A DNA stretch of 64,000 bases from Thermobaculum terrenum ATCC BAA-798. Lineage in GTDB: Bacteria > Chloroflexota > Chloroflexia > Thermobaculales > Thermobaculaceae. Within the stretch, counting starts at the first letter, position 1, and each line of letters opens with the position of its first letter. Where the stretch lies: NCBI RefSeq assembly GCF_000025005.1, contig NC_013525.1:1452501-1516500 (forward strand). Reading direction: 5' to 3'. Below, one piece after another: positions 53,683-58,393 of this stretch. The notes below the pieces were generated by a model. The model searched no databases, was not told the DNA's origin, and saw only the letters and a list, made by a program, of their open reading frames with translations. The position numbers were made by a program, and so were the translations under genes.

Positions 53683-53694
53683 ACTTGCAATTTA

Positions 53695-53715
53695 TTGTGC
53701 ACTATGCACTATAAT
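53695..53715 (+). promoter_or_regulatory. Candidate operator and -10 element of pucR
   Basis: TTGTGCACTATGCAC (53695-53709) is immediately followed by TATAAT (53710-53715). The GTG start of pucR is five bases further on, so the message is probably leaderless. A TTGCAA at 53685-53690 may be a -35 with a 19-base spacer filled by the operator. Occupancy should block transcription. Confidence 0.6.
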
Positions 53716-53720
53716 CTCTT

Positions 53721-55253
53721 GTGGTCTCAATAAGCGATCTGCTGTCTGGTCCTCTCAGTGGAAAGGCATCAGTGGTTGCAGGTGCACAATCCCTCAACCA
53801 CATAGTTACCTGGGTTGCCTCGGCTAGATCACGTACCCCTGCACTATCTAGACTTGAGGGAGGAGAGCTGGTTCTCATTCCGCCATCGACATATGAATAT
53901 TTAGGCGGGGATCAGACACTAGAAGATCTGCTTAGATCCTTAAAATCAGCCGACATAGCTGGTATATGCCTATGGCAGGTGCCTTCCGTTAGGGCTATAC
54001 AGGTTGCTAACGAAATAGAACTACCGATTCTAGCTGTGACTAATGTATCCCCTCCAGAGCTTGAGAGGGATCTGGTTGAGTTCATCTCCAACAGGATCCG
54101 ATCCGGTATCCAGAGAACCAATCAGACACAAGTACAGCTTTTGGATATTCTTGCTAGCAATAGAGGCCCAGAGGCACTAATCAGATTGCTAGCACAGAGC
54201 CTCAATATGCCAGTGGCTTGCTATCAGATCGATGGGCAAATGATTTCAAGCCCTAATTTCCCCGATATAGATCCTCCTGACCTAAATACAGACTGGAAGG
54301 AAAGCACGATCTATACAAATAGGTCAACAGACACAAGGCATTCCGGATGGATCTGGCAGATAGCAGTACGTAGGAGCAATAAACCTATCGCAGTATTAGT
54401 AGTTCTAGCCGATAAGCCAGACCCAACCCCGCAGGAAGCCTTGGATATAAAGCAGACAGCCGCAGCTATCTCTGTAGAGTTGAGCAGGCTATTAGCAGCT
54501 GAGGAGAATAAGGCCAGGCTACGTTCAGAACTAATCAGGGACCTGTTCTATAAAGGATCCGTTGAAAATCTAGCTGTAAGAGCAGATGTTGTAGGGGTAT
54601 CCATTCCAAATAACGGTATAGTAGCGGTAATAAGAGGGATACCACCTGAAACTAATGCTATGGAGTTATTAAGGGATCTGCTACCAAGGGTATCAAGCCT
54701 GCTTTCAAGTTACCCTATTCTGTATGAGAAAAGTGAAATCGCTATGCTCTTACCTGCCAACCTAAGGGGTGAGAGCACAACATCTATGCTGAGTAGAGGT
54801 GGAACAATAAATGTACCCAATATTGCCATTGGGATTAGCTCTCAGGTGAAACAGATAAGCGAAATACCTAACCACCTTTATGAGGCTAGGGTAGCAGCCC
54901 TTGTCAGCGAGAAGGTCTATCAAGGGAGAATGGTAACCTTAGAAGAAGCTAAAGCTTATGGACTTATAGCCCCCTTGGCTGGCTTGGAACCTATAAAAAG
55001 AAGAGTCATCGATATTCTAACTCCACTTATCACAGAAGCAGAGGGTAACAGATCGGAGCTATTCGCGACTCTGAAAGTATATTCTGAATGCAACGGCAAT
55101 TTATCAGAAGCTGCTCGCATTCTGCACATACATCGCAATAGCCTGGCCTACAGATTGCACAAAATAGAGCAGCTTACTGGAAGGAATTTGGATGACCCTG
55201 AAGACAGATTTATGTTAGCTATTGCCGTACACCTTTATCCCTTCTTGGTGTAG
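53721..55253 (+). CDS. PucR-family transcriptional regulator
   Basis: A 510-residue regulator. The N-terminal PucR domain (residues 1-120) carries VSISDLLSGPLSGKASVVAGAQSL and the typical SxxxRTPALSRLEGGELVL run. The central part is a GGDEF-like/GAF-like region that I cannot assign with confidence. The C-terminal PucR HTH shows CNGNLSEAARILHIHRNSLAYRLHKI. Family members control purine, allantoin, or amino-nitrogen genes. The neighbours are two glutamine synthetase genes, so a nitrogen role is likely. It starts with GTG 53721 with no ribosome site, close to a TATAAT. Confidence 0.9.
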   Translation: MVSISDLLSGPLSGKASVVAGAQSLNHIVTWVASARSRTPALSRLEGGELVLIPPSTYEYLGGDQTLEDLLRSLKSADIAGICLWQVPSVRAIQVANEIELPILAVTNVSPPELERDLVEFISNRIRSGIQRTNQTQVQLLDILASNRGPEALIRLLAQSLNMPVACYQIDGQMISSPNFPDIDPPDLNTDWKESTIYTNRSTDTRHSGWIWQIAVRRSNKPIAVLVVLADKPDPTPQEALDIKQTAAAISVELSRLLAAEENKARLRSELIRDLFYKGSVENLAVRADVVGVSIPNNGIVAVIRGIPPETNAMELLRDLLPRVSSLLSSYPILYEKSEIAMLLPANLRGESTTSMLSRGGTINVPNIAIGISSQVKQISEIPNHLYEARVAALVSEKVYQGRMVTLEEAKAYGLIAPLAGLEPIKRRVIDILTPLITEAEGNRSELFATLKVYSECNGNLSEAARILHIHRNSLAYRLHKIEQLTGRNLDDPEDRFMLAIAVHLYPFLV

Positions 55254-55265
55254 CGCTAATTTCTG

Positions 55266-55280
55266 TTGCTAACTGCACAA
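55266..55280 (-). promoter_or_regulatory. Candidate nitrogen operator, glnA site 1
   Basis: On the minus strand TTGTGCAGTTAGCAA; it matches the TTGTGCA half exactly and the rest in part. It lies 31 bases before the second site, about three helical turns. Confidence 0.45.
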
Positions 55281-55296
55281 CCAAGTAGTGGTTTTA

Positions 55297-55311
55297 TTGT
55301 GCAAAATGCAT
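55297..55311 (+). promoter_or_regulatory. Candidate nitrogen operator, glnA site 2
   Basis: TTGTGCAAAATGCAT, two bases before TAGAAT (55314-55319), a possible -10 of the first glutamine synthetase gene. The layout copies that of the pucR operator. Confidence 0.6.
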
Positions 55312-55373
55312 ACTAGAATGATAGCCTTCGACCTATACCATATACGCGTAACTATTATACTCAGGAGTTGCAA

Positions 55374-56726
55374 ATGGCCTTAGTAGATGTCCAGCCCGAT
55401 GTTCTGCAACGAGTAAAGGAAACTATAGAAAGAGAAAATATCAAATTCATCAACCTACAATTTACAGACATAATAGGTATGGTAAAGAGCGTAACCATAC
55501 CTGTATCCCAATTCGAAGACTGTGTAGAACACGGAAAATGGTTTGACGGATCCTCTATCGAAGGTTTCGCTCGTATCGCAGAAAGCGACATGCTTCTTGT
55601 TCCCGACCTCGAGACCTTTAGAGTTATACCTTGGGAAAGAGGCGAGAACGCTGGAGCTAGAATCATATGCTGGGTAAGGGAACCTAATGGGTCTGAATTT
55701 CCTGGAGATCCCAGAGCAGCTCTCAAAAGGGTAGTCGAAGAAGCCAAGGCTTTGGGCTATGACTTCATGACCGGCCCAGAGTTGGAATTCTTCCTATTCA
55801 AACTGTCCGACCTTGAGAAGACTGAAGTACTACCCCACGATAAGGGTGGTTACTTCGACCTAACCACTGATCTCGCATATGATGTACGTAAAGATATGGT
55901 AAATGCCCTGGAAGACATAGGCATAAAGGTAGAGACCAGTCATCACGAAGTAGCTCCAGGGCAACATGAGATAGACTTTCAGTATGATGCCGCCATTCCT
56001 ACTGCTGACGCTGCGGTAACTCTTAAATACACCTTGAAGGCCATTGCGGAGCGTCACGGACTTCATTGCACTTTCATGCCAAAGCCTATTTACGGCGTCA
56101 ATGGATCAGGCATGCATACTCATCAAAGCCTATTCAAGGATGGTGAAAATGCATTCGCAGATCCGTCAGATACCTATGGGCTGTCGAAGATCGCTAAGCA
56201 CTTCATAGCTGGACAGCTGGCTCATGCTCGTGCCATGATCGCAGTTCTAGCTCCCACCGTGAACTCCTACAAGCGTCTGGTACCAGGTTATGAGGCTCCT
56301 GTGTACTTGTCATGGGCAAGAGTAAATCGATCGGCCTTGATCAGAGTACCTAAGGTAAGCAAAGGTCAACTGAAGGCTACTAGGGTAGAGTTGAGATGTC
56401 CAGACCCAAGTGCTAACCCATATCTAGCCTTCGCAGTTATGCTCAAAGCTGGCCTGGACGGTATTAAGAGAGAACTAGAGCCGCCGGATCCCGTGGAGGA
56501 GAACCTCTACCTATTTGATGAGCATATGCTTGCCAAGCATGGGGTCGGTACACTACCTGGTAGCCTGGGAGAAGCAATAGAAGAGCTTAAGAAAGACGAA
56601 GTTATACAAGATGCACTTGGCGAACATATATATGAAAGATTCATAGAAGCCAAACAGATAGAGTGGGAAGAGTACAGCAAGTATGTAACCAAGTGGGAAA
56701 TAGATCGATACCTACCCATTTACTAG
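55374..56726 (+). CDS. glnA: Glutamine synthetase, type I (GSI-alpha-like)
   Basis: A 450-residue GS that makes glutamine from glutamate, ammonia and ATP. It has FDGSSIEGFARIAESDM, NGSGMHTHQSL and the KRLVPGYEAPVYLSW motif. There is no NLYDLP-like adenylylation site, and the length and 25-residue insertion pattern are those of GSI-alpha, so regulation by covalent modification is unlikely. I start it at ATG 55374, with AGGAG seven bases before; TTG 55368 is too close. A terminator follows at 56758-56794. The leader carries two motif sites shared with pucR. Confidence 0.95.
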   Translation: MALVDVQPDVLQRVKETIERENIKFINLQFTDIIGMVKSVTIPVSQFEDCVEHGKWFDGSSIEGFARIAESDMLLVPDLETFRVIPWERGENAGARIICWVREPNGSEFPGDPRAALKRVVEEAKALGYDFMTGPELEFFLFKLSDLEKTEVLPHDKGGYFDLTTDLAYDVRKDMVNALEDIGIKVETSHHEVAPGQHEIDFQYDAAIPTADAAVTLKYTLKAIAERHGLHCTFMPKPIYGVNGSGMHTHQSLFKDGENAFADPSDTYGLSKIAKHFIAGQLAHARAMIAVLAPTVNSYKRLVPGYEAPVYLSWARVNRSALIRVPKVSKGQLKATRVELRCPDPSANPYLAFAVMLKAGLDGIKRELEPPDPVEENLYLFDEHMLAKHGVGTLPGSLGEAIEELKKDEVIQDALGEHIYERFIEAKQIEWEEYSKYVTKWEIDRYLPIY

Positions 56727-56757
56727 CCTATTAGATTAGAAGAAATACGTGCTTTCG

Positions 56758-56794
56758 CGGGAGAGATAACATGTCTCTCCCGTTTCTGTTTTTA
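56758..56794 (+). terminator. Intrinsic terminator of the first glnA
   Basis: CGGGAGAGA pairs with TCTCTCCCG (9 bp, 7-base loop) and is followed by TTTCTGTTTTTA. This separates the two glutamine synthetase transcripts. Confidence 0.88.
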
Positions 56795-56799
56795 GTTTT

Positions 56800-56814
56800 A
56801 TGCATATTGCACAA
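56800..56814 (-). promoter_or_regulatory. Candidate nitrogen operator, second glnA site 1
   Basis: On the minus strand TTGTGCAATATGCAT, a full match to the pucR and first-glnA motif. Confidence 0.6.
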
Positions 56815-56832
56815 AAAACCTGTTCATCTTTG

Positions 56833-56847
56833 ATGGGTATTGCACTT
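56833..56847 (-). promoter_or_regulatory. Candidate nitrogen operator, second glnA site 2
   Basis: On the minus strand AAGTGCAATACCCAT, which matches the previous site at 11 of 15 positions, in the same orientation and 33 bases away. Confidence 0.35.
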
Positions 56848-56935
56848 ACAAAAGTCCCTTTATGACCAGTAAAGTCATGCATAACAGATGAGACTAGTGC
56901 GTACCGCAGGTAAAAATTCGGAGGTAAGAGAATAA

Positions 56936-58393
56936 ATGGGTAAGGTCTTGATCGAAGAGCAAATCGTTCAGGAAGGAATGACGCCTAAAGAAGTCATCGC
57001 TCGTGCACACGAAGCTGGAGTGGCTATTGTTGACTTGAGATTTGTCGACCTGCTAGGTACTTGGCAGCACTTTAGCATTCCAGTATCCGAACTGAGTGAA
57101 AAACTGTTTCTGGAAGGAGCAGGCTTCGATGGTTCTTCCATAAGGGGATTCCAGCACATACATGAGTCCGATATGATACTTATCCCTGATCCCTCAACGG
57201 CTGTCGTAGACCCTCTACTGAAAGTACCGACCATGTCAATTACGTGCTCCGTATACGACCCAGTAACAGGGCAGCCTTACAGTAGAGATCCTAGATACGT
57301 AGCTCAAAAGGCCGAGAACTATCTTAGGGAAACTGGCATAGCTACTGTTAGCTATTGGGGGCCTGAAGCCGAATTTTACATCTTCAACTCAATAAGGTTT
57401 GATCAAGACAGTCACTACGGTTTCTATTTTATAGACAGCGAAGAGGGCATATGGAACAGCGGTAACGACGGTGGAGTTCCTAATCTTGGGTACAGACCAA
57501 GATTCAAAGAAGGTTATTTCCCCGTTCCACCCACCGATAAGCTTCAAGACCTCAGATCTGAGATAGTACAGAACCTTATAGCTGCCGGTATCGATGTAGA
57601 AGTGCATCATCATGAGGTCGGCACTGCTGGTCAAGCCGAGATAGACATGGCTTTCAAATCCCTCACCCGTATGGCTGACCAGCTGATGATGTACAAATAC
57701 GTGGTGAAGAATACTTGTTACCAGAAGGGCTATGTGGCTACGTTTATGCCCAAGCCGATTTTTGGAGACAATGGTTCAGGTATGCATGTACATCAAAGCC
57801 TATGGAAGGAAGATCAAAACCTGTTTTTCAGTCCAGAAGGCTATGCTGGGCTAAGCGACCTGGCCAGGTGGTATATCGGCGGGATATTGTTACACTCTCC
57901 GTCTATACTAGCGTTCGCAGCTCCAACTACCAACTCATATCGAAGATTAGTTCCAGGATTTGAGGCTCCGGTATACCTCATGTACTCAAAGCGCAATAGA
58001 TCAGCTTGTGTACGAATACCGATGTACAGCAATAATCCTAAAGCCAAGCGAATAGAATATAGAGCTCCGGATCCTAGCTGTAACCCATACTTAGCATTCG
58101 CGGCGATGCTTATGGCTGGTCTGGATGGAATCAAGAACAAGATAGAGCCTCCTGCTCCTATGGATCAGGATCTCTACGAACTACCAGAAGAAGCTATTAC
58201 TAAGCTGCCGTCTGCTCCATCTTCACTAGCCGAGTCACTCTCTGCACTGGAGAATGATCACGATTACCTGTTGCAGGGAGATGTATTTACCAAGGATCTC
58301 ATAGAAACCTGGCTGTCTATAAAGAAGAAGGAAGTTTCCGAGATAAACAGAAGACCTCATCCTTACGAGTTCTTCATGTATCACGATGCGTAG
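56936..58393 (+). CDS. glnA: Glutamine synthetase, type I (GSI-beta-like)
   Basis: A 485-residue GS with FDGSSIRGFQHIHESDM, NGSGMHVHQSLW and KRLVPGFEAPVYLMY-like motifs. Near the C-terminus it has DLYELP, matching the NLYDLP adenylylation site of GSI-beta, so covalent regulation by GlnE is possible. The start ATG 56936 is behind GGAGG about ten bases away. A direct IR ATGAC-N7-GTCAT (56862-56878) precedes it. It follows a GSI-alpha-like gene; the pair may serve different nitrogen conditions. A strong terminator follows at 58401. Confidence 0.94.
   Translation: MGKVLIEEQIVQEGMTPKEVIARAHEAGVAIVDLRFVDLLGTWQHFSIPVSELSEKLFLEGAGFDGSSIRGFQHIHESDMILIPDPSTAVVDPLLKVPTMSITCSVYDPVTGQPYSRDPRYVAQKAENYLRETGIATVSYWGPEAEFYIFNSIRFDQDSHYGFYFIDSEEGIWNSGNDGGVPNLGYRPRFKEGYFPVPPTDKLQDLRSEIVQNLIAAGIDVEVHHHEVGTAGQAEIDMAFKSLTRMADQLMMYKYVVKNTCYQKGYVATFMPKPIFGDNGSGMHVHQSLWKEDQNLFFSPEGYAGLSDLARWYIGGILLHSPSILAFAAPTTNSYRRLVPGFEAPVYLMYSKRNRSACVRIPMYSNNPKAKRIEYRAPDPSCNPYLAFAAMLMAGLDGIKNKIEPPAPMDQDLYELPEEAITKLPSAPSSLAESLSALENDHDYLLQGDVFTKDLIETWLSIKKKEVSEINRRPHPYEFFMYHDA

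Follow-up and report, generated by a model that had tools for sequence, protein, structure and literature searches.

In the GlnR–glnA circuit of Gram-positive bacteria, the regulator gene lies directly before glnA, and its product controls both itself and glnA, with sensing through glutamine synthetase (PMC9249791). Among PucR-type regulators, GabR of Corynebacterium glutamicum is an octamer with a nitrogen-related target that needs two inverted repeats in one promoter for strong binding, PutR and AdeR of Bacillus subtilis bind inverted-repeat sites (17 bp long for PutR), and B. subtilis PucR, the namesake of the family, is both an activator and a repressor (PMC7652997). Here we analyse a 64,000-nt stretch of Thermobaculum terrenum ATCC BAA-798 (the window; NC_013525.1, positions 1,452,501–1,516,500), in which a gene for a PucR-family protein lies ahead of two glutamine synthetase genes, glnA1 and glnA2. 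The promoters of all three carry copies of a 17-bp palindrome, TTGTGCA-N3-TGCACAA. We propose that a PucR-family factor uses this palindrome as its operator and governs central nitrogen assimilation in this organism and, with variations, across much of the Chloroflexota.

The locus shares part of its design with each of these systems. Its gene order is that of the GlnR circuit, but GlnR belongs to another protein family, and its operator, TGTNA-N7-TNACA, is unmatched by the palindrome: all strong sites have C instead of A at a required half-site position, in agreement with an earlier note on this DNA, made from the sequence alone, which had found no match to the GlnR or TnrA consensus. The Pfam matches of the pucR product include no MerR-type DNA-binding domain and do not place it in the NtrC family (AAA+ sigma-54 activators). 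GabR is a local activator of γ-aminobutyric acid use that binds 21-bp repeats, lacks a GGDEF-like domain and does not control glnA or amtB. PutR and AdeR serve proline or alanine catabolism, and the likeness to the PutR site is in length. B. subtilis PucR has the same domains but acts in purine catabolism through a non-palindromic box, with no link to glnA or amtB; purine-catabolism genes, by which an orthologue of it would be recognized, are not among the strong-site targets in the T. terrenum genome. The candidate sites do have the paired inverted-repeat form typical of PucR-family operators, being 17-bp palindromes that occur as 33-bp pairs at glnA1 and glnA2. CdaR (SdaR) of Escherichia coli, an HTH_30 relative with a sugar-acid regulon, has TGCACAA/TTGTGCA half-sites near garP–garD and cdaR, and the half-site may be common to a wider part of the HTH_30 family. 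As full sites the CdaR promoters were rejected: they hold half-sites only (L164:5035, L164:5277 and L166:2406), with no N3 partner arm.

Every site quoted in the earlier note was found where it had been placed, and the 17-bp palindrome proved the best register for them. Scored by matching letters out of 14, the candidate operators are as follows.

53695–53711, plus strand: pucR operator TTGTGCACTATGCACTA, 13/14, abutting the putative pucR −10.
55264–55280, no strand assigned: weaker upstream operator of the glnA1 pair TGTTGCTAACTGCACAA, 11/14, with its partner 33 bp away, a spacing also seen in relatives.
55297–55313, plus strand: promoter-proximal operator of glnA1 TTGTGCAAAATGCATAC, 12/14.
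56798–56814, minus strand: strong operator of glnA2 TTGTGCAATATGCATAA, 13/14.
56831–56847, no strand assigned: weak glnA2 site TGATGGGTATTGCACTT, 8/14, paired with the strong one from 33 bp downstream.

A 15-mer with a fixed ATGC was dropped as the form of the motif, the palindrome resolving its register problem. Pair spacings had been given as 31 and 33 bases; the second figure stands and the first is an effect of register, both pairs being spaced exactly 33 bp as palindromes. The weakest site, AAGTGCAATACCCAT (8/14), would be meaningless by itself, and only its position, 33 bp from its partner, a distance seen again in relatives, speaks for it. Within the window alone the excess over chance is mild: the 15-mer with up to two mismatches has 7 matches against 2.93 ± 1.71, and 3 of 100 shuffles reach 7. 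We set aside a reading of the palindrome as an RNA hairpin because it sits upstream of or within promoters.

Across the whole genome (3,101,581 bp, two contigs), TTGTGCANNATGCAY has 6 matches over both strands, at 5 places, compared with none for the reversed-pattern control. Allowing at most one mismatch, TTGTGCANNNTGCAYAA occurs at exactly five places, all of them promoters: those of pucR, glnA1, glnA2, the ammonium transporter gene amtB (C1:1790605, about 60 bp ahead of the gene) and a gene for a queuosine-precursor transporter of the VUT family, where a perfect palindrome lies over a CATAAT hexamer (C1:1169286; L007:1501–1517). The earlier claim that no such site exists outside the locus thus holds within the window and fails in the genome, where amtB and the transporter gene each have one. 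With two mismatches, TTGTGCANNNTGCAYAA has 24 matches over both strands, level with the 21 of the reversed control; these matches were dropped, and only strong sites are informative.

The arrangement is shared by the family Thermobaculaceae (seven genomes, G000–G006), in which pucR lies directly upstream of glnA1 in every genome, the six others being 74–83% identical by segment. In the five relatives with DNA upstream of pucR, the site reads TTGTGCA-N3-T(G/A)CAC-TATACT, also given as TTGTGCA-N3-T(G/A)CACTATACT; this palindrome ending in the −10 is kept in all five, amid flanking DNA that has diverged. The amtB site is present in all five genomes that include DNA upstream of amtB, and three relatives have two sites at glnA1, spaced 32–33 bp and weaker in one of the three. 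Family-wide conservation of the glnA2 and transporter sites was sought in the few relatives with these genes and not found. Two metagenome-assembled genomes titled Rubrobacter sp. LC5_2 and LC3_1 (L079 and L080) have the same pucR–glnA loci as G002 and G004, and their titles seem misassigned.

To survey the phylum, we searched 400 Chloroflexota genomes for the exact palindrome irrespective of gene context, summing per-genome rows. There are 88 occurrences, spread over 55 genomes, compared with 5 of the reversed control. At the 69 loci whose gene context was checked, a glutamine synthetase match starts no more than 700 bp downstream in 30 and an ammonium transporter lies downstream in 5; by our estimate, with about five such genes per 5-Mb genome, chance would place well under one of the 69 sites there. 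Other exact sites lie at three molybdopterin oxidoreductases resembling assimilatory nitrate reductases, at one NirB-like reductase and at several divergent pairs of amino-acid permease and phosphoenolpyruvate carboxylase genes. In family f29 the exact palindrome stands at an amino-acid permease gene in seven loci (L193, L198, L201, L216, L230, L232 and L235), several of them divergent from phosphoenolpyruvate carboxylase, which suggests a link between anaplerosis and the nitrogen regulon. Also in f29, exact palindromes lie near genes for proteins of 80–90 amino acids that share a KIGR(Y/L)xSW-like motif (L204, L209, L218 and L189); the one examined has no Pfam match.

The earlier note had called the motif a candidate operator of a nitrogen regulon, and the promoter sites in the genome and their recurrence in relatives bear this out. 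Enrichment near nitrogen genes, set beforehand as the test that could refute the idea, is positive in the genome, the family and the phylum. From these comparisons we regard the role of the palindrome as a nitrogen-regulon operator as nearly certain.

How the sites would act depends on where they lie relative to genes and promoters, which in the window are placed as follows.

53685–53690, plus strand: putative pucR −35, TTGCAA (consensus reading; spacer 19 bp here, TTGCNN with 17–18 bp in five relatives).
53710–53715, plus strand: putative pucR −10, TATAAT (consensus reading; TATACT in the five relatives).
53721–55253, plus strand: pucR, 510-aa PucR-family regulator, GTG start at 53721 (Pfam PF07905 at residues 7–107, HTH_30 at 447–504).
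55314–55319, plus strand: putative glnA1 −10, TAGAAT (consensus reading; relatives have a TAG-type hexamer at this position).
55374–56726, plus strand: glnA1, glutamine synthetase I, 450 aa.
56757–56783, plus strand: terminator-like hairpin after glnA1, between glnA1 and the glnA2 site.
56936–58393, plus strand: glnA2, glutamine synthetase I, 485 aa.

The putative pucR −10 ends 5 bp ahead of the GTG, and the pucR mRNA is therefore probably leaderless. The terminator-like hairpin behind glnA1 suggests that glnA2 is probably transcribed from its own promoter. The predicted dimer of the pucR product would bind the palindrome through its C-terminal HTH_30 domain, and paired sites, separated by 33 bp or three turns, would be bound by a higher oligomer, for which the GabR octamer is a possible model. 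At its own promoter PucR would be a repressor, the operator occupying the spacer between −35 and −10. The abutment of this site on the −10, already remarked in the earlier note, is a consensus reading in the window, and the palindrome runs into the −10 in the five relatives too. Such a position points to autorepression, which we judge probable.

At glnA2-type and amtB promoters, with sites about 45–85 bp upstream of the likely start, PucR would act as an activator under nitrogen scarcity, a role that we favour by a small degree. The glnA2-type promoters of f29 have a strong site at about 0, a degenerate second site at about +33 and a TATNAT-like hexamer at about +79, a layout in which the two sites would fall near −83 and −50, positions that suit activation; glnA2 in the window has the same two-site layout, with TAAAGT at 56870. 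When 125 partner offsets were compared over 30 non-redundant promoters, +33 ranked first (z of about 3.1), with +34 and +32 in the next three, making the partner spacing suggestive rather than strong as a signal. Alternatively, PucR could be a pure repressor everywhere, shutting off pucR, glnA1, glnA2 and amtB in nitrogen excess like the mainly repressing GlnR of B. subtilis, which represses its own glnRA operon (PMC9249791). This would suit the pucR site, which fills the −35/−10 spacer in six genomes, the strong glnA1 site, which abuts its −10, and the transporter-gene site, which covers the CATAAT hexamer. At the glnA2-type promoters of f29, however, the sites stand well ahead of the conserved TATNAT-like hexamer, and the amtB sites precede their likely −10 by about 30 bp; both positions fit activation better, and characterized PucR-type regulators are mostly activators (PMC7652997). 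We thus see repression throughout as a serious contender on which we would not bet.

The assignment of the palindrome to PucR itself draws on gene order, on the constancy of the site at the pucR promoter throughout Thermobaculum's family and on distant relatives. The pucR product has a C-terminal HTH_30 domain (PF13556; 83.3 bits against a cut-off of 27; residues 447–504), an N-terminal PucR domain (PF07905; 45.1 bits against 33.5; residues 7–107) and a GGDEF-like middle domain (PF17853; residues 282–393) that at 24.3 bits falls slightly below the cut-off of 24.5; the last is found in about half of PucR family members. Against PDB sequences it has only two distant matches in the HTH region, Rv2242/MabR and a polyketide-synthase regulator. 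Adjacency of pucR and glnA is found in Thermobaculum's family, in Thermoflexus metagenome-assembled genomes, in Ardenticatena and in families f21 and f46, with an exact site separating the two genes in the last three. Because they share the recognition-helix pattern [LI]HRNSL[AS]YR, through which we retrieved them, distant PucR-type proteins could plausibly share the operator: at 57 such loci, 12 have at least 12 of the 14 letters at their own promoter, ten of these outside the Chloroflexota, whereas 200 permuted arms averaged 0.065 and never exceeded 1. Clostridial genomes have their strongest or near-strongest site at a PucR gene, which often forms a divergent pair with a gene for an old-yellow-enzyme-type oxidoreductase. 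These observations argue well for the control by PucR that the earlier note had supposed, and PucR is very likely the binder in T. terrenum.

The palindrome lies between a PucR-type gene and the divergent oxidoreductase gene in clostridial loci L099, L106, L111, L116, L121 and L125, with subunits of a xanthine-dehydrogenase-like molybdenum hydroxylase nearby in L116; the PucR-type proteins there possibly regulate anaerobic purine breakdown.

A second alternative keeps the nitrogen regulon and gives the operator to another regulator, pucR being merely one target. Adjacency of pucR and glnA is not universal, and the PucR genes inspected in families f7 and f29 lack such a site at their own promoters despite exact glnA sites, which makes the binder in those two families less certain. 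A separate nitrogen regulator of Chloroflexota would, however, fail to explain the palindrome at clostridial PucR promoters away from glnA, and HTH_30 proteins occur in 22 of the 23 site-bearing genomes checked, the sole exact site of the exception lying inside a 3′-phosphoadenosine-5′-phosphosulfate (PAPS) reductase gene. In a tree, f7 PucR proteins adjoin those of Thermobaculum's family with moderate support (88/90) and clostridial proteins form a separate clade; no sites were found at f6 PucR genes. A different binder is, on balance, unlikely.

That the palindromes are chance recurrences or relics without a regulatory role, as the mild excess in the window and the control-level two-mismatch count might suggest, is refuted to the point of negligible probability by the comparative evidence: the surplus of exact sites across the 400 genomes, half of the inspected ones being at glutamine synthetase or amtB genes, the pucR palindrome conserved amid diverged flanks, and the 12 of 57 distant PucR promoters.

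Besides the bare PucR promoters of f7 and f29, several observations weigh against our proposal. Only 35 of the 69 exact sites are at glutamine synthetase or amtB genes, and some lie inside genes or near genes without a nitrogen link (L167, L211 and L218). Within the family, the glnA1 sites are lost in one genus (g2), strong sites are lacking at the glnA2 orthologues of G001 and G006, and G003, the sole relative with the transporter gene, has none there. The +33 signal is modest and the partner sites are degenerate; all promoter positions are consensus readings, and the putative pucR −35 was not picked up by a promoter scan. With these points counted, we still consider the proposal as a whole, a PucR-read operator of central nitrogen assimilation with autorepression and activation of the glnA2 and amtB types, to be likely.

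The family is unusual in another respect: the PII protein GlnB/GlnK (PF00543) was found in none of its seven genomes, compared with 13 of 14 control genomes. This lack suggests that nitrogen status is probably read either directly by PucR or by way of glutamine synthetase. We conjecture that the signal, which could be glutamine, 2-oxoglutarate or feedback-inhibited glutamine synthetase, acts on the PucR/GGDEF-like part of the regulator or on glutamine synthetase, the latter paralleling the route described for GlnR (PMC9249791).

In the open-licence literature, and leaving aside the RegPrecise Chloroflexi collection of 30 transcription-factor regulogs in 5 genomes (PMC3840689), we found no PucR-type regulator described for glnA or amtB, and no such operator described in Chloroflexota; to that extent the regulon is undescribed, as first supposed. 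The components are of known kinds and, as far as can be told, their combination is new. It seems somewhat more plausible than not that ancestral master control over nitrogen assimilation in Chloroflexota belongs to a PucR-family protein, which operates with no PII in at least one family and shares its palindrome with clostridial PucR-type regulators of other pathways. If so, it would fill the place held by GlnR, NtrC, NtcA or AmtR in other phyla, and a family known for local catabolic control would join the master nitrogen regulators, with the absence of PII making the mode of nitrogen sensing a question in itself. The finding would also provide a sequence-specific operator for a clade of the PucR family, most of whose sites are unknown. 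For the Chloroflexota, a large and mostly uncultured phylum for which we found no account of nitrogen-assimilation control in the same literature, a defined operator and a named regulator would amount to a phylum-wide regulon that is directly testable in vitro.

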